Of a stretch of DNA of 64,000 nt, positions 42,085-51,951 are shown in pieces (position 1 is the stretch's first letter; every line of letters begins with the position of its first letter). The stretch is from Paracoccus sp. MKU1 (GTDB lineage Bacteria > Pseudomonadota > Alphaproteobacteria > Rhodobacterales > Rhodobacteraceae), in assembly GCF_001447385.1 (NCBI RefSeq), contig NZ_LLWQ01000225.1, positions 1 through 64,000 of the forward strand, written 5' to 3'. The translations under genes were made by a program, and so were the position numbers. Below the pieces are notes generated by a model, which worked only from the letters and a program-made list of their open reading frames with translations, was not told where the DNA came from and ran no database searches.

Positions 42085-42405
42085 TCAGTCCTTGGGACCG
42101 CAGAAATTGTTGTAAAGCACTTCCATCACCTTTCGCGCCGGCTGGCTTTCGATCCGATACCAGATCGTCTGGCCCTCGCGCCGGCCGGCGATGATCCTGT
42201 CGCGGCGCAAAAGCGCCAGATGCTGCGACACGGTCGAATCGCGGATGCCCAGGAAATCCGCAAGCTGGCCCACCGATTTCTCGCCCTGCACCAGTTGGCA
42301 CAGGATCAGCAGACGGTGACGATTGCCCAGCGATTTCAGGAACTCGCTGGCCTCGTCTGCGGCGGCGCGCATGCTTTCGGGATCGATGCTGGTGCTGACG
42401 CTCAT
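42085..42405 (-). CDS. ArsR-family repressor of BigR/SqrR type (persulfide sensor)
   Basis: 106 residues. The winged helix region reads SVGQLADFLGIRDSTVSQHLALLRRDRII. It lacks the ELCVCDL metal-binding motif of arsenic sensors. Instead Cys36 (LLILCQLVQG) and Cys102 (NNFCGPKD) are 66 residues apart, the same spacing as the disulfide/persulfide pair of SqrR and BigR. It is divergent from a YgaP-like and RND operon. It probably represses these and a sulfide oxidase gene until reactive sulfur crosslinks the pair. Confidence 0.82.
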   Translation of the reverse strand: MSVSTSIDPESMRAAADEASEFLKSLGNRHRLLILCQLVQGEKSVGQLADFLGIRDSTVSQHLALLRRDRIIAGRREGQTIWYRIESQPARKVMEVLYNNFCGPKD

Positions 42406-42413
42406 ATTCCATA

Positions 42414-42431
42414 ACTACATTACTGCGAATA
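42414..42431. promoter_or_regulatory. Candidate autoregulatory site of the ArsR-family repressor
   Basis: On the minus strand TATTCGCAGTAATGTAGT matches 13 of 18 positions of the consensus drawn from the two stronger sites at 42835 and 49203, mostly in one half. It lies 9 bp upstream of the repressor gene. Confidence 0.5.
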
Positions 42432-42829
42432 TACGGTCAAGGCGCGGCCGGGAACCACCCGTGCCGGCCTTTTGCGGCCGGTCTTTGCCGGGGCCGCTTC
42501 CGAGCCGGCGCGGCTTTGCCTCGCCACAATATCGCCGAGACGCCCGCGGACGAGACGCAGCTGCGCCGGCTGCGGGATCTGCCGCTGCTGCATGTCGCGG
42601 ACGTGCTGTTCCATCGCTTGTGGAAGCGCGAAACCCTGATCCGCGCCACGGTGGCCCGGGTGGAGGCGCACCCGCATCGAGCTCTACGCCGATGCGGTAT
42701 CGTCGGGGCCGGCATCATCGCCGGTCCGGGCGGTGGTTTTGCGCCCCGGCCCGGCTTGCCGGCATCAAGACGAAATGTCGCAGGGCAGGGGCGGATTTTC
42801 CGATATTGCTAAAGACTTTCTCCTTGTAA
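42432..42829. other. Gap between the repressor gene and its target promoter
   Basis: About 400 bp with no gene I can support. One plus-strand frame near 42520-42660 gives AETPADETQLRRLRDLPLLH and further gene-like sequence, then seems to shift frame, so it may be gene debris; I do not recognise the family. Confidence 0.3.
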
Positions 42830-42868
42830 CCGATTATACGTATATATGTATATACTGTTTGTAATCGG
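42830..42868. promoter_or_regulatory. AT-rich operator upstream of the YgaP-like/RND operon
   Basis: TATACGTATATATGTATA (42835-42852) is an 18-bp palindrome with ATAC-N8-GTAT spacing. It sits inside larger perfect arms CCGATTA (42830-42836) and TAATCGG (42862-42868). It is about 20 bp upstream of the first gene, where a bound repressor would block RNA polymerase. Confidence 0.65.
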
Positions 42869-42886
42869 CCATCCTGGAGTTCTCCG

Positions 42887-43087
42887 ATGACACTTGACCG
42901 TTCCGTTCTCGCCTTTGCAGGCTTCATGGTCCTGCTTTCCGTCGCGCTGACCGTCTGGGTTTCGCCCTGGTTCGTCTGGCTGACGGTCTTTGTCGGGTTG
43001 AACCTGCTGCAATCGGCCTTTACCGGCTTCTGCCCGGCGGCCATGGTTCTCCGCAAGCTCGGCATCAAGCCCGGCTGCGCCTTCTGA
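42887..43087 (+). CDS. Small YgaP-like membrane protein (DUF2892)
   Basis: 66 residues with two membrane helices (SVLAFAGFMVLLSVALTV and FVWLTVFVGLNLLQSAF) and the family ending FCPAAMVLRKLGIKPGC. This domain is the membrane part of YgaP rhodaneses and is found with sulfide-responsive genes. Here it lacks the rhodanese domain. GGAG precedes the ATG. It opens a three-gene operon under the AT-rich operator. Confidence 0.85.
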   Translation: MTLDRSVLAFAGFMVLLSVALTVWVSPWFVWLTVFVGLNLLQSAFTGFCPAAMVLRKLGIKPGCAF

Positions 43088-43098
43088 AGGTCCGATCC

Positions 43099-44058
43099 AT
43101 GCGATTGTTGCTGCTTGCTGCGCTGGTCGCCGCCGGGCCGGCTGCGGCCGGGCCGCTGGTCCTGGACTGGAGCACGGTCCCCGAGAGCAAGGCCGTCTAC
43201 GGCACCGTCGAGGCGCGCGACATCGTTCCGGCGCGGGCGCGCATCGGCGGCACGGTCGTGGAGCTGCTGGTCAACGAAGGGGACCGCGTCGAGGCCGGGG
43301 CCACGCTCGCCACGGTCCGCGACGACAAGATCGCCTTCCAGATCGCCGCCTATGCCTCGCGGATCGAGGCGCTGCGGGCGCAACTGGCCGAGGCGGAATC
43401 CGATCACGCACGCGGCCGGTCGCTGCTGGAGCGCGGGGCGGTGTCGCAGCAGCGGCTGGAGCAGTTGCGGACTGCGGTCGATGTCATCCGCGGCCAGATC
43501 GCCGCGGCCGAGGCCGAGCGCGCCGTTGTCGAGCAGCAGCAGGCCGAGGGTGTCGTGCTGGCCCCCATCTCGGGCCGGGTGCTGAGCGTGCCGGCGGTGC
43601 GCGGCTCGGTGGTGATGCCGGGCGAGGTGGTGGCGAGTCTTGGCGGCGGCGGCTTCTTCCTGCGCCTGTCGGTGCCCGAGCGCCATGCCGCCGACCTTGC
43701 CGAAGGGGCCGAGATCCAGATCGCCGCGGGCGGCAGGGCCGCCACGGGCCGGCTGGCCAAGATCTATCCGCTGATCCAGGGTGGCCGGGTGCAGGCCGAT
43801 GTCGAGGTCGAGCGGCTGCCCGACGCCTTCGTCGGTGCGCGCGTCGCGGTGGAACTGCCGGTAGGCCAGCGTCGGGCGCTTCTGGTGCCCGCTGCGGCGG
43901 TGACGACCCGCGCCGGGGTGGATTTCGTCAGCGTGGCCAGCGCCTCGGGCGAGGTGCGGCGGGCGGTGCTGACCGGCGGAACCCTTGCGCAGGACGGCAG
44001 CGACATGGTCGAGATCCTGACCGGCCTTGTCCCCGGGGAAACGGTGATCGTCCCATGA
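43099..44058 (+). CDS. RND efflux periplasmic adaptor (MFP/HlyD family)
   Basis: 319 residues: a signal peptide (LLLLAALVAAGPAAAGP), lipoyl half-motifs around a short coiled coil (residues 85-150, ASRIEALRAQLAEAE), a beta-barrel region and the membrane-proximal end. It links the inner-membrane pump to an outer-membrane channel. It overlaps the pump start (ATGA). No outer-membrane factor gene is nearby. Confidence 0.9.
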   Translation: MRLLLLAALVAAGPAAAGPLVLDWSTVPESKAVYGTVEARDIVPARARIGGTVVELLVNEGDRVEAGATLATVRDDKIAFQIAAYASRIEALRAQLAEAESDHARGRSLLERGAVSQQRLEQLRTAVDVIRGQIAAAEAERAVVEQQQAEGVVLAPISGRVLSVPAVRGSVVMPGEVVASLGGGGFFLRLSVPERHAADLAEGAEIQIAAGGRAATGRLAKIYPLIQGGRVQADVEVERLPDAFVGARVAVELPVGQRRALLVPAAAVTTRAGVDFVSVASASGEVRRAVLTGGTLAQDGSDMVEILTGLVPGETVIVP

Positions 44059-47000
44059 AGGCGGCTGGCGATACCCCCCGCAGCCCGGGCCTTGCCGGCC
44101 GGCTGACGCGCAGCTTCATCACCTCGCCCTTGACGCCGCTGTTCCTGATCGCGGCGCTGGCCTTCGGGCTGCTGGCCCTGGTCAGCCTGCCGCGCGAGGA
44201 AGAGCCGCAGATCTCGGTTCCCATGGTGGATATCCGCGTCCAGGCCCCCGGATTGCGGGCCGAGGATGCGGTCAAGCTGGTGACCGAGCCGCTGGAAACC
44301 ATCGTCAAGGGCATCGACGGGGTCGAGCATATCTATTCCCAGACCCAGGACGACGGCGTTCTGGTGACGGCGCGTTTCCTGGTCGGCACCTCGGCCGATG
44401 CGGCCGTGCTGCGGGTGCATGACAAGCTGCGCGCCAATATGGACCGCATCCCCCTGGGCATCCCCGAGCCGCAGGTGGTGGGCCGGGGCATCGACGACGT
44501 GGCCATCGTGGCGCTGACGCTTTCGGCCCGACCCGAGGCGGCCGACCGGGTGACGGCGGCCGAACTGACCCGCATCGCCCGCGAATTGCGCACCGAGCTG
44601 GCCAAGATCGACGATGTCGGCCTGACCTATCTGATCGGCGAGACGGAGGAGGCGATCCGCATCGCCCCCGATCCCGGTCGGCTGGCGCTTTACGGCATCA
44701 CGCTGCAACAGCTGGCGGGCAAGGTTCAGGGCGCCAACCGCGCCCTGCCGGCGGGATTGCTGCGCGACGGCGGCCAGCAGGTCATGCTGGTCGCGGGCGA
44801 GACCCTGCGCAGCCCCGAGGAGATCGGCAACCTGGTGCTGACCGCGCGCGACGGCCGCCCGGTCTATGTCCGCGACGTGGCCGATCTGGGCTTCGTCACC
44901 GACACGGCCGAGGCGCTGGTCGCCACCGTCACCCGCGATTCCGCCCGGCGCCCGGCGGTGACGCTGGCCCTGGCCAAGCGCGCCGGCGCCAATGCCGTGA
45001 CCGTGGCCGAGGCGATCCTGCACCGCGCCGAGGCGCTGCAAGGTACGCTGATCCCCGACGACATGCAGGTCGAGATCACCCGCGACTATGGCGAGACGGC
45101 CAACGAAAAGGCCAACGAGCTGCTTTATCACCTGGGCCTCGCCACGCTGTCGATCATCGCGCTGGTCTGGCTGGCCATCGGCCGGCGCGAGGCGCTGGTG
45201 GTGGCGGTGGTGATCCCGGTGACGATCCTGCTGACGCTGTTCGCCTCGTGGATCATGGGCTATACGCTGAACCGGGTCAGCCTGTTCGCGCTGATCTTCT
45301 CGATCGGCATCCTGGTGGACGACGCCATCGTGGTGATCGAGAACATCGCCCGGCATTGGGGCATGGGCGTGTCGGACCGGCGCGAAAGCGCCATCGAAGC
45401 GGTGATCGAGGTCGGCAACCCCACCATCGTCGCCACGCTGACCGTGGTGGTGGCCTTGCTGCCGATGCTGTTCGTGTCGGGGATGATGGGCCCCTATATG
45501 AGCCCGATCCCCTCGAACGCCTCGGTGGCGATGATCTTTTCCTTCTTCGTCGCGGTGACGGTCACGCCCTGGCTGATGCTGAAGACCGCCGGCCAAGCGC
45601 CGCTGCATCACGACGCCGAAGGGCAGGGCGGTCGCCTGGGCCGCGCCTATGCCGCCATCGCCCGGCCGGTGCTGGCGAGCAAGGGGCGCGCCTGGCTGTT
45701 CCTGGGCGGGGTGATCGTGCTGACCTTCGGCTCGCTGGCGCTGTTCTATACCCGCGACGTGACGGTCAAGCTTTTGCCCTTCGACAACAAGTCGGAGCTG
45801 TCGGTGAGCATCGACCTGCCCGAGGGCGCGGCGGTCGAGACCACGGATGCCGTGGCCCAGGCGGTGGCCGGGGCGGCGATGGAGCTGCCCGAGGTGGTCT
45901 CGGTCCAGACCCATGCCGCGGCGGCGGCACCCTACAACTTCAACGGCCTGGTGCGGCATTCCTTCTATCGCACCCAGCCGCATCAGGGCGAGGTGGCGGT
46001 CAACCTGACCCCTAAGCACGGCCGCGACCGCTCGAGCCACCAGATCGCGCTGGACCTGCGCGCGCGCATCCAGGCGCTGCCGCTGCCCCCGGGCACGGTG
46101 CTGAAGGTGGTCGAGCCGCCGCCCGGCCCGCCGGTGATGGCGACGCTGCTGGCCGAAATCTACGGCCCCGACCCCGAGACCCGCCGCGCGGTCGGCGAAA
46201 AGGTCGAGGCGGCGTTCCGCTCGGTCCCTTTCATCGTCGATGTGGACAATTCCTGGGGCGAGGCGGCGCCGCGGCTGCGGGCGCTGATCTCGCCCGACGA
46301 CCTGGACTTCTACGGCGTGGCGGAATCGGACGTCTTCGACAGCATCGCCATCCTGAACGGCTCGACCACGGTCGGCTATTCGCACTGGGGCGAGGGGCGG
46401 GCGCCGATCCCGATCCGGGTCGAGCGGCCCCGCGACCAGCGCGTGCCGGGCGAGGATTTCCTGACCACGCCGATCCCGGCCGATCTGCTGCCCGGCAATC
46501 GCGGCGTGGTCGAGCTGGGCGACGTGGTGCGGATCGAGGAGGAGCGCGCCTCGCATATCCTGTTTCGCCACAATGGCCGGCCGGCCGAGATGGTGACGGC
46601 GGAACTTGCCGGCGATTTCGAGGCGCCGCTTTACGGCATGCTCGCCGTGCGCGACGCGCTGGAGGCGCAGGACTGGACCGGCCTGCCCAAGCCCGAGATC
46701 CGGCTGCGCGGCCAGCCCGGGGACGACAGCGCCAGCACGCTGCTGTGGGACGGCGAATGGGAGGTGACCTGGGTCACCTTCCGCGACATGGGTGGGGCCT
46801 TCGCGGTGGCGCTGCTGGGCATCTATATCCTGGTCGTGGCCCAGTTCGGCTCGTTCCGGCTGCCGCTGGTGATCCTGACGCCGGTGCCCCTGACCTTCAT
46901 CGGCATCCTGGGCGGGCATTGGCTGTTCGGCGCGCCCTTCTCGGCGCCGTCGATGATCGGCTTCATCGCGCTGGCCGGGATCATCGTCAGGAACTCGATC

Positions 47001-47246
47001 CTGCTGGTGGATTTCATCCGCCACGACACCACCGGCCGCCCGCTGACCGAGGTGCTGATCGACGCCGGCGCCGTGCGCTTCCGGCCGATCCTGCTGACCG
47101 CGCTGGCGGCGATGATCGGCGCGGCGGTGATCCTGACCGATCCGATCTTCCAGGGGCTGGCGATCTCGCTGTTCTTCGGGCTGATCTCCTCGACCCTGCT
47201 GACGGTGCTGGTGATCCCGGCGGTCTATCGGGTGTTCCGCACCTGA
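44055..47246 (+). CDS. RND efflux pump, AcrB/HAE1-like
   Basis: 1063 residues, full length, with the 12-helix RND layout and large periplasmic loops. Helix 4 has the family segment FSIGILVDDAIVVIENIARH with the proton-relay aspartates. The substrate is unknown. Its operon with a YgaP-like protein beside a persulfide-type repressor points to export of a reactive-sulfur product or of a compound met under sulfide stress; that is inference. Confidence 0.92.
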   Translation: MKAAGDTPRSPGLAGRLTRSFITSPLTPLFLIAALAFGLLALVSLPREEEPQISVPMVDIRVQAPGLRAEDAVKLVTEPLETIVKGIDGVEHIYSQTQDDGVLVTARFLVGTSADAAVLRVHDKLRANMDRIPLGIPEPQVVGRGIDDVAIVALTLSARPEAADRVTAAELTRIARELRTELAKIDDVGLTYLIGETEEAIRIAPDPGRLALYGITLQQLAGKVQGANRALPAGLLRDGGQQVMLVAGETLRSPEEIGNLVLTARDGRPVYVRDVADLGFVTDTAEALVATVTRDSARRPAVTLALAKRAGANAVTVAEAILHRAEALQGTLIPDDMQVEITRDYGETANEKANELLYHLGLATLSIIALVWLAIGRREALVVAVVIPVTILLTLFASWIMGYTLNRVSLFALIFSIGILVDDAIVVIENIARHWGMGVSDRRESAIEAVIEVGNPTIVATLTVVVALLPMLFVSGMMGPYMSPIPSNASVAMIFSFFVAVTVTPWLMLKTAGQAPLHHDAEGQGGRLGRAYAAIARPVLASKGRAWLFLGGVIVLTFGSLALFYTRDVTVKLLPFDNKSELSVSIDLPEGAAVETTDAVAQAVAGAAMELPEVVSVQTHAAAAAPYNFNGLVRHSFYRTQPHQGEVAVNLTPKHGRDRSSHQIALDLRARIQALPLPPGTVLKVVEPPPGPPVMATLLAEIYGPDPETRRAVGEKVEAAFRSVPFIVDVDNSWGEAAPRLRALISPDDLDFYGVAESDVFDSIAILNGSTTVGYSHWGEGRAPIPIRVERPRDQRVPGEDFLTTPIPADLLPGNRGVVELGDVVRIEEERASHILFRHNGRPAEMVTAELAGDFEAPLYGMLAVRDALEAQDWTGLPKPEIRLRGQPGDDSASTLLWDGEWEVTWVTFRDMGGAFAVALLGIYILVVAQFGSFRLPLVILTPVPLTFIGILGGHWLFGAPFSAPSMIGFIALAGIIVRNSILLVDFIRHDTTGRPLTEVLIDAGAVRFRPILLTALAAMIGAAVILTDPIFQGLAISLFFGLISSTLLTVLVIPAVYRVFRT

Positions 47247-47295
47247 GCCGCTGCCCCGTGCCGTATTCAACCTTGCTGTGCGGGGCCGGCCCGGA

Positions 47296-47658
47296 TCAGG
47301 GTTTCTGCCGTGATCGCGGGGGCCGCATCAGCGACTGGACGGTATAGACCAGGATGGCGCTGCCCACCGCGCCCAGCACCGCGACCCCCAGAAGCACGAT
47401 CACGTCGATCGGCCCGCCGATGTCGCGCAGGCCGGAATGGGTCATGCGCTGGACGAAGACCACAGCGAGAATGGCGCCGAAGGGCATGGATAGCTGGGCC
47501 CAGAGGAACTTGCGCATCGACAGGGCGCGGTCGCGGATCAGCACATAGAGATAGGCCAGCGTGACCGCCGCCGCGACGAGGACCATGGCCCAGAACAGCC
47601 CGCGGCCGAAGATCTCCTCGAAAACCGCGATCAGCGTGCCGAATGTCAGCTCTTTCAT
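47296..47658 (-). CDS. DUF5368 membrane protein
   Basis: 120 residues with three to four hydrophobic segments (FWAMVLVAAAVTLAYLYVLI, FGAILAVVFVQ, VIVLLGVAVLGAVGSAILVY). It matches my memory of the DUF5368 family, found beside sulfide:quinone reductase-like genes in Rhodobacterales. It lies 13 nt after the flavoprotein gene and is co-transcribed. It may anchor or serve that enzyme; no function is known. Confidence 0.7.
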   Translation of the reverse strand: MKELTFGTLIAVFEEIFGRGLFWAMVLVAAAVTLAYLYVLIRDRALSMRKFLWAQLSMPFGAILAVVFVQRMTHSGLRDIGGPIDVIVLLGVAVLGAVGSAILVYTVQSLMRPPRSRQKP

Positions 47659-47671
47659 GATGCTTCCCCTG

Positions 47672-49021
47672 TCAGGCCCGGCCGCGCAGCATGGCGTTGT
47701 AGGTGGCCTTCAGCGCCACCTCCTTCATCAGCCAGCTGATCCACAGTTCCTCCAGCGGGGCGATGACCCCGGGGAACGAGGGCACCAGGTTGTTGTGATA
47801 GTCGAACTCGACCAGCATGGCCCGGCCGACGCGGGTGATGAGCGGGCAGGAGGTGTAGCCGTCATAGGTCTGGGTCCCCTCGCGCCCCTGGATGGCGGCG
47901 ACCAGATGGTCCTCGATCACCGGGACCTGCCATTTCACCGAGGCTGCGGTCTTGCCCTTGGGCACGCCCGCCACATCGCCGAGTGCGAAGACCTGGGGAT
48001 AGCGCAGGTGGCGCAGGGTCTTCATGTCGCATTCGACCCAGCCCTGGTCGGTCCATTTGTCGGCCCAGCTCAGGCCCGACTGCCGGATCACCGCGGGGGC
48101 GCGCTGCGGCGGGATGACATGCAGGTAGTCATAGGGCATCTCGGCCGCGGACTTGACGACCGTGCCGGTCGCCGGATCGGGGATCGCGGTCTCGAACCGC
48201 GCCGTCTTGCGGCCGGGATCGATGGCGGTCAGCGTATGGCCGTAATGCGAGGCGATGCCGCGCTGCCCGAACAGCATGCGCACCTTTTCCGACACGATCG
48301 GCACCGAGAACAGCACCGGCTGCGGGCAGGCGTAATGCATCTCGTACCTGCCCCGGGCGCCGCCGCGGCTGGCGATGTCCTCGATCAGGAAGGTGTGCTT
48401 CAGCGGCGCGCCGGCGCATTTCATCTCGGTCGCGGGGCGGGTGAACAGGCCGATGCCGCCCGACTCGGCGAATCTCGATGCCGCCTGCCAGGTCTTGGCG
48501 GCATAATCCGGCCCGGCATAAAGCGCCCCGATCCCGTCCCTGCCCACCAGGTCGAGCGAGAATCCCTCGATGGCATCGTGGTCGAGCACCAGGCCCGGCG
48601 CCACCACCAGGAAATCATAGCCGAGCGTCTGCCCGTTCTCGGTCGAGACGGTCCTGGTCTCCGGGTCGATGGCGGTGGCCGTCTCGGCGATCAGCGTCAC
48701 GCCCGAAGGCAGCCAGTCGGTGGTCCGGGAGACGACATAGCCGGCCGGCTTCAAGCCGGCCGCGACCAGCGACAGGCCGGGCTGGTAGTAATGCTGCGCC
48801 CGGGGGTCGATCAGCGTGATCTGCGCGCCGTCCAGCCGCTGGACCAGGCGATTCGCCAGGGCGGTGCCGCCGGCACCGGCGCCGATGATGATGATCCGCG
48901 CCTTCGTCGCGATCCTCTGGGCCTGCGCGGCGCGGGTCCCCAGGCCCCCTGTGATGGCGCCGGCAAGCGCAAATCCCAACATGCCCCTGCGAGAGGGCCG
49001 GAAATCGACTGGTCCTGCCAT
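47672..49021 (-). CDS. Tat-exported sulfide:quinone oxidoreductase-like flavoprotein
   Basis: 449 residues from the ATG at 49021, with GGAGGAGG just upstream. A twin-arginine signal (PSRRGMLGFALAGAITGG) is followed by the FAD loop RIIIIGAGAGGTALANRL. Cys202 (MKCAGAP) and Cys392 (YTSCPLIT) match the two catalytic cysteines of SQR; the third, N-terminal Cys of type I enzymes is missing, as in the mitochondrial type. Export to the periplasm resembles FccB of flavocytochrome c, but there is no fccA. It should oxidise sulfide to polysulfide or persulfide. Confidence 0.83.
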   Translation of the reverse strand: MAGPVDFRPSRRGMLGFALAGAITGGLGTRAAQAQRIATKARIIIIGAGAGGTALANRLVQRLDGAQITLIDPRAQHYYQPGLSLVAAGLKPAGYVVSRTTDWLPSGVTLIAETATAIDPETRTVSTENGQTLGYDFLVVAPGLVLDHDAIEGFSLDLVGRDGIGALYAGPDYAAKTWQAASRFAESGGIGLFTRPATEMKCAGAPLKHTFLIEDIASRGGARGRYEMHYACPQPVLFSVPIVSEKVRMLFGQRGIASHYGHTLTAIDPGRKTARFETAIPDPATGTVVKSAAEMPYDYLHVIPPQRAPAVIRQSGLSWADKWTDQGWVECDMKTLRHLRYPQVFALGDVAGVPKGKTAASVKWQVPVIEDHLVAAIQGREGTQTYDGYTSCPLITRVGRAMLVEFDYHNNLVPSFPGVIAPLEELWISWLMKEVALKATYNAMLRGRA

Positions 49022-49202
49022 GGGGCCTCCTCCGTGACCTCCTGTGCCCGAGCCCGGACTCTGGCTCCGGGCTCCTGGCCACATGCGCTGGCACCCGGCC
49101 CGTGCCCGCGGCGACCCTGAGGCCGGCCGCAACGCACAGGGTGCATCGAGGCGGTGGGGGCGGCGTTCCCCTTTTGCCGAGTCGGGTGGTTAAGATTATG
49201 TA

Positions 49203-49220
49203 TATTCGATATTATGAATA
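49203..49220. promoter_or_regulatory. AT-rich operator upstream of the SQR-like gene
   Basis: TATTCGATATTATGAATA is an 18-bp palindrome with the ATTC-N8-GAAT core that I recall for SqrR/BigR repressors. It shares 12 of 18 positions with the site at 42835 and stands out as an AT island in the 361 bp (49022-49382) between the SQR-like gene and the divergent permease. I see no other gene in that gap. Confidence 0.65.
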
Positions 49221-49382
49221 CGTCAATATACCAGACGAACCGCTCCCGGCCTGCGTGGCACTTGGTCGCAGCGGTCCGGGTGCTTGCCGGTCCGGCCGCT
49301 TGCGGCATTGCGCGGTTGGCACTGGCCTTTTTCGGCAAAGCCGCCCAAAAGCCTGCCCACGCAACCGAATCCGAGAGACGTG

Positions 49383-50660
49383 ATGGGCTATTTTCCTGAT
49401 TGGCGCCCCGCCGCGGGCGCCACGGTGCTACCCGATGAAAAGCTGCCGCTGACCCAGGCGGTGCCGATGAGCCTGCAACACCTGCTGGCGATGTCCGGCT
49501 CGACCATCCTGGCCCCGCTGATCATGGGGTTCGATCCCAATGTCGCGGTGTTCTTTTCCGGTCTCGGCACGCTGCTGTTCTTTGCCGTGACCGGCGGGCG
49601 GGTGCCCAGCTATCTCGGTTCGTCCTTCGCCTTCATCGCCGTCATCATGGCGGCGACCGGCTTTGCCGGCGGCGGGCCGAACCCGAATATCGCCGTGGCG
49701 CTTGGCGGCATCATCGCCGCCGGTTTCGTCTATGCGCTGATCGGGCTGATCGTCATGGCCATCGGCTCGGGTTGGGTCGAGAAGCTGATGCCGCCGGCGG
49801 TGACCGGGGCCATCGGCATGTCCATCGGGCTGAACCTGGCGCCAGTGGCGGTCAGGCAGCTTGCCGGCAGCCATGTCCATCTGAGCATCGCCCTGGCGAC
49901 CGTGCTGTGCATGGCGCTGGTCTCGGTCTATGGCCGGCAGGCCACCCGCCGGATCGCGGTGCTGATCGCGCTGCTGTTCGGCTATGCGCTGGTGCTGGTC
50001 CTCGGCAACGGGCTTGGCCTGGTGCCCGGCATCGACTTCGCCGCCGTCGCCGCCGCGCCCTGGTTCGGGGTGCCGAACTTTACCGCGCCGCGCTTCGAAT
50101 GGTCCGCGATCAGCCTGATCGCCCCGGTCGCCATCGTGCTGGTGGCCGAGAACCTGGGCCATATCAAGGCCCTGGGCGCGATCACCGGGCAAAGCATGGA
50201 CCGCTATATCGGCCGGGGCTTTCTGGGCGACGGGCTGGCCACCATGTTGGCCGGCACGGGCGGCGGCACCGGCGTCACCACCTATGCCGAGAATATCGGC
50301 GTCATGGCCATGACCCGGGTCTATTCCACGCTGATCTTTCCCATGGCGGCCGGCATCGCGATCTTCCTGGGCCTGTCGCCCAAGTTCGGCGCCATCCTGC
50401 AAACCATCCCGGCGCCGGTGCTGGCCGGGCTGGCGGTGTCGGTCTTTGGCCTGATCGCCTCGGCCATGGCGCGGATCTGGGTGGACAACAAGGTCGATTT
50501 CTCGGATCCGCGCAACCTGTTCACCGTGGGGGTGGCGCTGATCCTTGGCGCCGGCGATTTCACCGTCACCATCGGCGATTTCGCGCTGGGGGGCATCGGC
50601 ACCTCGACCTTTGCGGCGCTGCTGCTCTACCAGTTGCTGGGCATCGGCCGGCGGGCGTAG
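49383..50660 (+). CDS. uraA: Uracil/xanthine-type nucleobase:cation symporter
   Basis: 425 residues from the ATG at 49383 with about 14 membrane segments. The NCS2 family marks are SLQHLLAMSGSTILAPLIMG, TGAIGMSIGLNLAPVAVRQ and the carrier motif GGTGVTTYAENIGVMAMTRV. It probably imports uracil with protons. It is divergent from the SQR-like gene and may share its AT-rich operator, an odd pairing. The N-terminus (MGYFPDWRPAAGATVLPDEK) fits UraA proteins. Confidence 0.9.
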   Translation: MGYFPDWRPAAGATVLPDEKLPLTQAVPMSLQHLLAMSGSTILAPLIMGFDPNVAVFFSGLGTLLFFAVTGGRVPSYLGSSFAFIAVIMAATGFAGGGPNPNIAVALGGIIAAGFVYALIGLIVMAIGSGWVEKLMPPAVTGAIGMSIGLNLAPVAVRQLAGSHVHLSIALATVLCMALVSVYGRQATRRIAVLIALLFGYALVLVLGNGLGLVPGIDFAAVAAAPWFGVPNFTAPRFEWSAISLIAPVAIVLVAENLGHIKALGAITGQSMDRYIGRGFLGDGLATMLAGTGGGTGVTTYAENIGVMAMTRVYSTLIFPMAAGIAIFLGLSPKFGAILQTIPAPVLAGLAVSVFGLIASAMARIWVDNKVDFSDPRNLFTVGVALILGAGDFTVTIGDFALGGIGTSTFAALLLYQLLGIGRRA

Positions 50661-50688: not shown

Positions 50689-50716
50689 CTTGAAACCCGG
50701 GCCGGCGCTTCTAAAT
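50689..50716 (+). promoter_or_regulatory. Candidate heat-shock (RpoH) promoter of the first hsp20 gene
   Basis: CTTGAA (50689-50694), 16 bp, then CTAAAT (50711-50716) fits the alphaproteobacterial sigma-32 pattern. It predicts a transcript start near 50723 and a 5' leader of about 90 nt. Confidence 0.55.
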
Positions 50717-50750
50717 GGCTAGGTGCGGGTGGCCGGAACCGGAACCCGTC

Positions 50751-50813
50751 TGCCGGGCATCCCCCGGCAAGATCAAATGCTTGTACCCATGTTGCTCAGA
50801 GGAGGATGTGGCT
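50751..50813 (+). promoter_or_regulatory. ROSE-like RNA thermometer in the hsp20 leader
   Basis: The leader holds a hairpin TGCCGGG (50751-50757) with CCCGGCA (50763-50769). It ends in a second stem in which TTGCTC (50792-50797) faces the ribosome site GGAGGA (50801-50806), closed by CCAT with GTGG. The TTGCTC/GGAGGA pairing with an internal G-G mismatch is the hallmark of ROSE elements, which melt with heat. Confidence 0.55.
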
Positions 50814-51326
50814 ATGAGGACCACGTTTGACTTCACCCCGCTCTTTCGGTCGAGCGTCGGATTCGACCGGCTCCTGAATGCCCTTGAAACCGCCTCGCGC
50901 GTCAATACGGCGGAAAGCTGGCCGCCCTATGACATCGCCAAGGAGGGCGAGGACAACTATCGCATCACCATGGCCGTGGCCGGTTTCAGGCAGGAAGATC
51001 TCTCGCTGACGCAGGAACGCAATCTGCTGATCGTCACCGGCCGCAAGGACGGCGGCGAGGAGGCCGAGTATCTGCATCGCGGCATCCCCGTGCGCGGTTT
51101 CGAGCGCCGCTTCGAGCTGGCCGATCACGTCAAGGTCGAAGGGGCCGAGCTGCATGACGGGCTGCTGACCATCACCTTGCAGCGCGAGATCCCCGAGGAG
51201 ATGAAGCCGCGCCGGATCGACATCGCTTCGGCCAAGGCGGCGGGCGCGGACGGGCGGAAGCGCATCACGTCCGAAAAACCTGCCGGGAAGGCGCCCGACA
51301 AGGCCGGGGAGGCGGCTGCGGCCTGA
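50814..51326 (+). CDS. Small heat-shock protein Hsp20 (IbpA type)
   Basis: 170 residues from the ATG at 50814 (MRTTFDFTPLFRSSVGFDRLL), the IbpA/HspA class A start. The alpha-crystallin domain spans about residues 35-140 (YRITMAVAGFRQEDLSLTQE ... GAELHDGLLTITLQREIPEE). It holds unfolded proteins in the cytoplasm. The tail (residues 145-170) is an Ala/Lys-rich extension longer than normal. Expression is probably set by the RpoH-like promoter and the ROSE-like leader. Confidence 0.92.
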   Translation: MRTTFDFTPLFRSSVGFDRLLNALETASRVNTAESWPPYDIAKEGEDNYRITMAVAGFRQEDLSLTQERNLLIVTGRKDGGEEAEYLHRGIPVRGFERRFELADHVKVEGAELHDGLLTITLQREIPEEMKPRRIDIASAKAAGADGRKRITSEKPAGKAPDKAGEAAAA

Positions 51327-51363
51327 TCCTCGACCGCGGGTGCCGATCGCAGCTTCGCATGAT

Positions 51364-51390
51364 CGGGCACCGGGCTTTTCTCGGTGCCCG
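51364..51390 (+). promoter_or_regulatory. Stem-loop in the leader of the second hsp20 gene
   Basis: CGGGCACCG (51364-51372) and CGGTGCCCG (51382-51390) are perfect 9-bp arms with a T-rich 9-nt loop. It lies 33 nt before the second hsp20 start and could act as a terminator of the first gene or a folded leader. Confidence 0.6.
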
Positions 51391-51423
51391 TGGAAAGCCG
51401 TTGCCGATGAATGGAGAGACAAG

Positions 51424-51951
51424 ATGAGTGTCCGTGACCTGATTCCGCAGAACCTGATCTGGTGGCGCAACCGTGACAGCCAGACGCCCACCGAATGGCG
51501 CGACGACGGCCGCGACCCTTTCACCAGTTTCCAGCGCGAGATGAACCGTCTTTTCGACGATTTCTTCCGCTCCGCCGATACCCGGCTGCCCTCGCTGGCC
51601 GGATTTGGCCCCGCCTGGGGCGGCGCGACCTGGCCGCGCGTCGAGATTGCCGAGACCGACAGGGAGATCAAGGTCAGCGCCGAGCTGCCCGGGCTTGAGG
51701 AAAAGGATGTCGAGCTGCTGCTTGAAAACGGCGGCCTGACCATCCGGGGCGAAAAGACCTCGGCCAGCGAGGACAAGGAGCGGCAGTTCTCGGAGCGGTT
51801 CTATGGCCGGTTCGAGCGGCGCATCCCCTTGCCCGACGGTATCGAGCAGGACAAGGCCGAGGCGAATTTCGCCAATGGCGTGCTGACCGTGACCCTGCCC
51901 AAATCCGAGACCGCGCAAAGCCGGGTCAGGCGCATCGAGATCCGCAGATGA
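51424..51951 (+). CDS. Small heat-shock protein Hsp20 (second copy, different class)
   Basis: 175 residues from the ATG at 51424, with GGAGAGACAAG upstream. The alpha-crystallin domain (WPRVEIAETDREIKVSAELP ... NGVLTVTLPKSET) has the class typical of plant-like bacterial Hsp20s, with FTSFQREMNRLFDDFF in front. It is not a recent duplicate of its neighbour. The pair may form mixed oligomers. Confidence 0.92.
   Translation: MSVRDLIPQNLIWWRNRDSQTPTEWRDDGRDPFTSFQREMNRLFDDFFRSADTRLPSLAGFGPAWGGATWPRVEIAETDREIKVSAELPGLEEKDVELLLENGGLTIRGEKTSASEDKERQFSERFYGRFERRIPLPDGIEQDKAEANFANGVLTVTLPKSETAQSRVRRIEIRR

Follow-up and report, generated by a model that had tools for sequence, protein, structure and literature searches.

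Disposal of surplus persulfide and polysulfide by oxidation and by reduction is known, and hardly any export of these compounds is, to our knowledge, on record. Whether an efflux pump could take part in it is the question raised by a locus of Paracoccus sp. MKU1, where the genes for an RND pump, of a family known above all for exporting drugs, lie close to the genes for an ArsR/SmtB-family repressor and an SQR-like flavoprotein. The locus is contained in the window (the whole stretch of 64,000 nucleotides that was analysed, positions 1 to 64,000 of contig NZ_LLWQ01000225.1 of assembly GCF_001447385.1), which represents one contig of a source genome of 5.39 Mb in 242 contigs. The closest named relatives of the repressor, found in P. 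versutus, P. denitrificans and P. thiocyanatus, are 87-91% identical to it. Three related operators were identified in the window, and matching sites stand in front of persulfide dioxygenase, thioredoxin and SQR genes, both in this genome and in others. Judged from sequence, the locus is very probably part of a regulon of the SqrR/BigR type; that the pump removes sulfane sulfur is a guess, to which we give a little less than an even chance.

Operators in the window and in related loci

The motif was derived from 80 named loci of relatives plus the window, which gave 123 upstream regions, or 108 after redundancy filtering. The palindromic motif TATATACGNAATTNCGTATATA, obtained by expectation-maximization, reached a log-likelihood ratio of 1032 at width 22 and of 899 at width 20, as compared with 78-82 for four shuffled promoter sets at width 20 (the real set was run with 40 restarts and the shuffled ones with 25). 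A position weight matrix (PWM) was then built on 89 promoter regions from relatives; the window and every Paracoccus or Pseudogemmobacter locus were excluded. With this held-out PWM, the top three separate places in the 64 kb window were operators 2, 3 and 1, in this order (Table 1), and a second register overlapping operator 2 (42825-42846) scored 21.0 bits. The best place away from the operator sites scored 5.9 bits, and the highest maximum among 20 dinucleotide shuffles of the window was 11.3 bits. The three related 18-bp palindromes noticed in a preliminary description of this DNA proved to be the cores of the 22-bp palindrome; two of them (42835-42852 and 49203-49220) indeed agree at 12 of 18 positions when counted by eye, and operator 1 is the most degenerate of the three.

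The threshold for an operator was set at 16 bits, a value picked after the scores were seen and reached by 16 of 2878 random 260-bp segments away from ArsR genes. Among the held-out promoters of the Paracoccus group, nine of the ten ArsR promoters passed, the exception being L014 with 8.0 bits, as did all three YgaP-like promoters. A site was also present in 68 of the 70 ArsR and 30 of the 34 YgaP-like promoters of the training set, counts that are not independent of the model. Within 33 loci of RND orthologues outside the training set (512 kb), 21 sites of at least 16 bits were detected, of which 20 precede a sulfur-cluster gene by at most 350 bp and the remaining one (L198:9594) ends 51 bp short of an SQR match; for every held-out RND locus, identity to the 80 named loci stayed below 88% over 800 nt. 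Operator 3 is kept at the SQR-like promoters of L007, L008 and L009. These three loci, from the closest Paracoccus relatives, also carry an extra operator (L007 9878, L008 9866 and L009 9887), which precedes the ArsR site by 86-107 bp; PWM scanning of the 64 kb window gave no such extra operator. Five operators in all were counted in L008, the P. denitrificans locus, where RND, SQR-like/DUF5368, ArsR and dioxygenase genes are all present.

Operators outside the window

The own genome carries a persulfide dioxygenase gene on another contig (C216:33122), the product of which is 88% identical to the dioxygenase of P. denitrificans. A site of 20.1 bits was found 37 bp before the ATG taken as its start, and an operator lies just upstream of the dioxygenase gene in all seven Paracoccus-group loci with a dioxygenase match, including P. 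denitrificans. Against the Blh model NF040641 the dioxygenase scored 562 of 625 bits, the match covering model positions 139-423 (the dioxygenase half). It is followed by genes for a Sulf_transp-like protein (scored on its C-terminal 139 residues only, at 24.8 bits and thus short of the cut-off of 27), DUF6691 and SulP. A few genes past the dioxygenase, a site of 16.1 bits precedes the gene for a TrxC-like thioredoxin (123.1 of the 125 bits for TrxC).

In Rhodobacter capsulatus, transcription of thioredoxin-2 is increased more than 20-fold by sulfide or by disruption of sqrR, and thioredoxin-2 resets SqrR (PMC10044876; papers given by PMC number are cited here for parts of their text). The TrxC-like gene behind the 16.1-bit site corresponds to this reported SqrR target, and no other evidence argues as strongly that a persulfide regulon is marked by the operator. 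The claim of a reactive-sulfur regulon in the preliminary description gains strong support from the operators before dioxygenase, thioredoxin and SQR genes and from the conserved cysteine pair of the repressor, both of them sequence evidence. The PWM was scored on fetched stretches of the own genome, and the list of regulon members may be incomplete.

Organization of the locus

The genes and coordinates (Table 1) are those of the preliminary description. The ArsR gene (-) and the YgaP-like/MFP/RND unit (42887-47246, +) point away from each other, and the DUF5368 and SQR-like genes (47296-49021, -) are oriented toward the RND gene. YgaP is defined by a rhodanese domain plus a transmembrane (TM) domain; the YgaP-like protein has the TM domain alone and falls outside this definition, no rhodanese domain being found in it by profile search. 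The gene set of the window (ArsR, YgaP-like, MFP, RND, SQR-like and DUF5368) is present in one cluster at locus L181. On the other side of operator 3 a nucleobase permease gene starts at 49383 (+), and beyond it, at 50715-51951 of the window, there are two small tandem open reading frames that look Hsp20-like by eye.

Table 1. Genes and predicted operators of the locus, with positions in the window
Feature	Position	Strand	Evidence
ArsR/SmtB-family repressor, SqrR/BigR-like, C36 and C102	42085..42405	-	HTH_5, PDB chain, C-66-C pair
Operator 1, ArsR promoter, TAACTACATTACTGCGAATATA	42412..42433		24.9 bits, Paracoccus-free PWM
Operator 2, YgaP-like/MFP/RND promoter, ATTATACGTATATATGTATATA	42833..42854		31.2 bits, top place of the window
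YgaP-like transmembrane protein, 66 aa	42887..43087	+	PF11127, 51 bits (cut-off 25.3)
RND periplasmic adaptor (MFP)	43099..44058	+	TIGR01730, 126.1 bits (cut-off 94.9)
RND permease, distinct subfamily	44055..47246	+	PF00873, 486.8 bits
DUF5368 membrane protein	47296..47658	-	PF17336, 167.9 bits
SQR-like flavoprotein, twin-arginine signal	47672..49021	-	Mitochondrial SQOR match, E 2.1e-61
Operator 3, SQR-like/DUF5368 promoter, TATATTCGATATTATGAATACG	49201..49222		26.4 bits

An RND subfamily linked with sulfur genes

The unit has the features of a tripartite RND system, namely an AcrB-family permease (PF00873), an adaptor (TIGR01730) and the proton-relay aspartates; the YgaP-like/MFP/RND unit showed no gene for an outer-membrane factor. 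An orthologue of the permease at 59-67% identity was found in 12 of 142 genomes of the class, the own genome not counted, and among the matches listed the next full-length ones fall to 30% identity and below. Extension to the phylum added relatives of 58-77% identity and a group of 37-45%, the latter mostly from other classes. The close set consists of 33 orthologue loci, and 19 loci were examined of the many found for the distant set. As controls, 20 loci of RND paralogues were drawn from eight of these genomes, the own genome included.

Sulfur genes (two-cysteine ArsR, YgaP-like, SQR or dioxygenase) were present near the pump in 29 of the 33 close loci, as against one of the 20 controls (Fisher, p 1.3e-9), a comparison that slightly favours the orthologues because the flanks were 5-7 kb for the controls and up to 8 kb for the first 12 orthologue loci. 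The lone scoring control (L251) shares its contig with the orthologue L139. YgaP-like genes were the most frequent neighbours in the close set (26 loci), followed by SQR (19), two-cysteine ArsR (17), dioxygenase (3) and SQR-like (1) genes, and an operator of at least 16 bits was present in 19 of the 33 loci but in none of the controls. The distant group (L199-L217) had a sulfur gene in 15 of 19 loci, a YgaP-like gene in 15 and an operator in 7; the pairing of pump and YgaP-like protein may therefore predate the link to the regulator.

In a FastTree phylogeny computed from 73 sequences, monophyly with respect to the controls was obtained for the close set (support 0.98) and for the subfamily as a whole (support 1.0). 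All 53 members of the subfamily retain both TM4 aspartates and carry Arg in place of the relay Lys of TM10, at the position that we take to be equivalent to K940 of AcrB; this position was Lys in 12, Arg in 3 and another residue in 5 of the controls. By these features the pump is a member of a distinct RND subfamily. The permease scored below the multidrug RND model NF033617 (410.1 bits, cut-off 1250).

SQR-like protein and DUF5368

The best PDB matches of the SQR-like protein were mitochondrial SQOR, with the cysteines of KCAGAP and YDGYTSCPL both aligned; we take the KCAGAP and TSCP cysteines to be the catalytic ones of the SQOR active site. The score of 201.9 bits is below the cut-off (525) of NCBIfam model NF049943. 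A twin-arginine (RR) signal was present in all 14 SQR-like homologues and in 33 of the 34 SQR-like proteins encoded next to DUF5368, the 34th match lacking the N terminus (five genomes are common to both counts). In all 34 loci examined (L099-L103 and L253-L281), the DUF5368 gene has an SQR-like gene within 1.5 kb; these loci comprise 29 of the 37 other genomes of the family over the cut-off and all five other genomes of the class over it. AlphaFold predicts an all-helical fold for DUF5368 (mean pLDDT 80.2, pTM 0.60), to which no structural match was found in PDB at E<=0.001. The pair has the appearance of an exported SQR, accompanied by a dedicated partner in the membrane, for which sulfide:quinone activity is predicted, and DUF5368 thereby gains its first firm context. 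The two genes may also constitute a conserved two-gene unit of their own.

The repressor

The ArsR-type winged helix of the regulator is supported by PF01022 (HTH_5; 43.1 bits, cut-off 22). As the preliminary description had pointed out, it contains a pair of cysteines, C36 and C102, 66 residues apart (the C-66-C pair); these are its sole cysteines, and both align with those of the top PDB chain, 13ct_A, which was grouped with 6o8l-6o8o (E 1.5e-20). The PDB entries are labelled as ArsR family only, and are presumably SqrR of R. capsulatus. All of the 80 relatives retrieved by similarity have the C-66-C pair, as do six of six RND-adjacent regulators from the first class set. The protein is a SqrR/BigR-like regulator that retains the cysteine pair of the sensor, and a response to persulfide is predicted.

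Proposed model

As the likely best explanation for the locus as a whole, we propose a persulfide-responsive repressor acting on shared operators, de-repression by sulfane sulfur and, as a guess, export by the pump. The repressor would hold the 22-bp palindrome at its own promoter and at the YgaP-like/MFP/RND and SQR-like/DUF5368 promoters, and would also hold the operators at the dioxygenase/sulfur-transporter operon and the TrxC-like gene. Upon accumulation of sulfane sulfur, a polysulfide bridge would join C36 and C102, and the bridged repressor would leave DNA, leading to switch on all the units. The SQR-like, dioxygenase and thioredoxin enzymes would then oxidize or reduce the sulfur, and the TrxC-like protein would reset the repressor; for the sensing chemistry and the resetting, the model follows studied relatives. 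The RND pump might expel sulfane-sulfur species, such as polysulfide, thiol persulfide or S0-type products of the exported SQR-like enzyme, or alternatively sulfur-damaged envelope molecules, with a general outer-membrane channel as the exit.

RND pumps take up their cargo on the periplasmic side, and this fits an exported SQR making persulfide in that compartment. In a tentative extension of the model, to which we lean less than to the rest, the subfamily with Arg for the TM10 Lys could be a trans-envelope exporter of sulfane sulfur working with a Tat-exported SQR anchored by DUF5368, so that under one persulfide sensor sulfide would be oxidized and its persulfide products expelled from the periplasm before reaching the cytosol. 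A conserved RND subfamily that occurs together with a persulfide sensor and SQR, and has an operator in common with SQR, dioxygenase and thioredoxin genes, represents a directly testable candidate for such an exporter, and the regulon may link sulfide exposure to efflux.

Alternative explanations

Several observations weigh against the proposed model, and they are given here together with the alternatives. The main rival concerns the cargo: reactive sulfur could quite possibly induce a pump whose actual substrate is different, be it a hydrophobic compound, a complex of metal or metal sulfide, a product of lipid damage or another by-product, with the sensor serving merely as an alarm. The permease belongs to the AcrB-type Pfam family, and its gene neighbourhood does not prove a sulfur substrate; four of the 33 close loci (L139, L140, L146 and L187) have no sulfur gene in the stretch examined. 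In Azospira suillum, the operon Dsui_3440-3443 with RND, MFP and SQR genes is highly expressed under H2S, and a DUF2892 gene elsewhere is increased about 10-fold; deletion of the RND-SQR operon left the rate of H2S oxidation unchanged, and the H2S-induced pumps were read as possible exporters of metal sulfides (PMC5358917). Against a cargo of this kind, the curated model TIGR00914 (251 bits, cut-off 701.45) does not place the permease among the heavy-metal (CusA/CzcA) RND pumps, and the tie of the subfamily to SQR, YgaP-like and two-cysteine ArsR genes favours a sulfur-linked substrate.

As to operator 3, it is located between the SQR-like start (49021, -) and the nucleobase permease start (49383, +), and since this divergent intergenic region is shared, either gene or both may be the target. 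That it governs the permease and not the SQR-like/DUF5368 pair is improbable, even though the distance is about 160 bp to the permease start and 180 bp to the SQR-like start: in four of four Paracoccus promoters, the SQR-like strand carries a TTGA that precedes the site by 3 or 4 bases, and the same class of operator precedes other SQR genes elsewhere. No operator of at least 12 bits was found at the SQR-like/DUF5368 pair of the five other class genomes (L099-L103), and the pair is therefore not always in this regulon. At the ArsR promoter, operator 1 ends 6 nt upstream of the start codon (42403-42433), with a similar spacing in L007, L008 and L012 (6, 6 and 7 nt, respectively). A TTGA or TTGC at a fixed place before the operator was present in 13 of the 30 measurable ArsR promoters, the site being missing or at the edge in the other 42 of 72, and a scan for consensus promoters found none. 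If the pair TTGACC/TAGTTA is the ArsR promoter, the transcript would be nearly leaderless. We suggest repression by promoter occlusion at these putative promoters.

A sensor for metal, arsenite or a general oxidant, with the sulfur genes being incidental, is very unlikely. The repressor is of the ArsR/SmtB family and scored 83.8 bits against the cut-off of 155 of the BigR equivalog NF040642, and is therefore named SqrR/BigR-like and not BigR; a two-cysteine ArsR gene lies near just 17 of the 33 close pump orthologues, and of the 24 loci with an ArsR match seven lack any ArsR with the C-66-C pair. CxC and histidine-rich motifs are the metal sites of ArsR proteins, and none was visible when the sequence was inspected by eye. 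A sensor of that kind is also at variance with the placement of the only two cysteines as in SqrR-type chains, with the conservation of their spacing throughout the relatives and RND-adjacent regulators, and with operators before dioxygenase, SQR and TrxC-like genes.

The persulfide regulon was not apparent from simple patterns. A genome-wide motif search, as proposed in the preliminary description, was performed with the degenerate pattern TATAYGN4TATGNATA, and just two sites of the window stood out with 0 or 1 mismatch; at two mismatches the total was not enriched (8 + 11 matches, 19 in all, versus 11 + 6, or 17, for the reversed control). A longer pattern with three mismatches gave 78 matches per strand versus 76 for the control, among the matches listed. 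The dioxygenase site has three mismatches to the degenerate pattern (by eye) and was found only by PWM scoring of the fetched region. Patterns alone fail to define the regulon, and the PWM was therefore applied to fetched stretches. That the palindromes represent chance AT-rich repeats or the sites of another regulator is hardly credible: they are AT-rich within a GC-rich genome and the PWM gave numerous spurious sites in AT-rich loci (L104 and L123), but the held-out PWM test, the shuffles and the 21 promoter-placed held-out sites all stand against it.

Comparison with known systems

The preliminary description regarded a link between RND efflux and sulfide as new, which goes too far. RND efflux pumps were named in 2025, from gene neighbourhoods, as likely targets of two-cysteine ArsR regulators responsive to sulfane sulfur (PMC12423496), so that the ArsR-RND link is proposed there too; the part of that paper cited here gives no operator for the RND case and defines no subfamily. 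The Azospira operon shares RND, MFP and SQR genes and the link to H2S with the present locus, a likeness by description, and differs in that the term ArsR is absent from the main text of the report (PMC5358917).

In the literature searched, with subscription papers and supplements outside its scope, no operator common to the pump and to dioxygenase, SQR and thioredoxin, no defined RND subfamily of this kind and no text on DUF5368 was found. In the main texts, "RND" does not occur in PMC9995734 nor "efflux" in PMC9143464, and no wording for a palindromic or inverted-repeat operator occurs in PMC9143464, PMC9774250 and PMC5823870. PMC7315123 speaks, in the part cited, only of "candidate BigR operators", and SoxR binding regions were identified in the sox promoter-operator segments of P. 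denitrificans (PMC10451225); in view of such printed regions, a related consensus for the operator may be in print already.

The BigR/Blh operon of Xylella and Agrobacterium has a repressor of the same subfamily, a dioxygenase half of Blh matched by the operator-linked dioxygenase described here, and sulfur-transport neighbours (PMC5823870). It is different in that the present repressor is below the BigR cut-off, the present dioxygenase is without the sulfur-transferase half, and an RND pump is included in the regulon. In Achromobacter xylosoxidans, bigR is recurrently mutated in chronic lung infection and associated with beta-lactam resistance (PMC8269239). This association is a possible link of the sensor family to efflux.

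In R. capsulatus, sqr is a target of SqrR. The SqrR regulon shares with the system proposed here a two-cysteine ArsR repressor with cysteines 66 residues apart, and thioredoxin-2 is under SqrR control (PMC10044876) as the TrxC-like gene here has an operator. The identity between SqrR and the present regulator is moderate (E 1.5e-20), and the Paracoccus regulon is distinguished by the addition of an RND pump with a YgaP-like protein and of a Tat-signal SQR-like protein with DUF5368.

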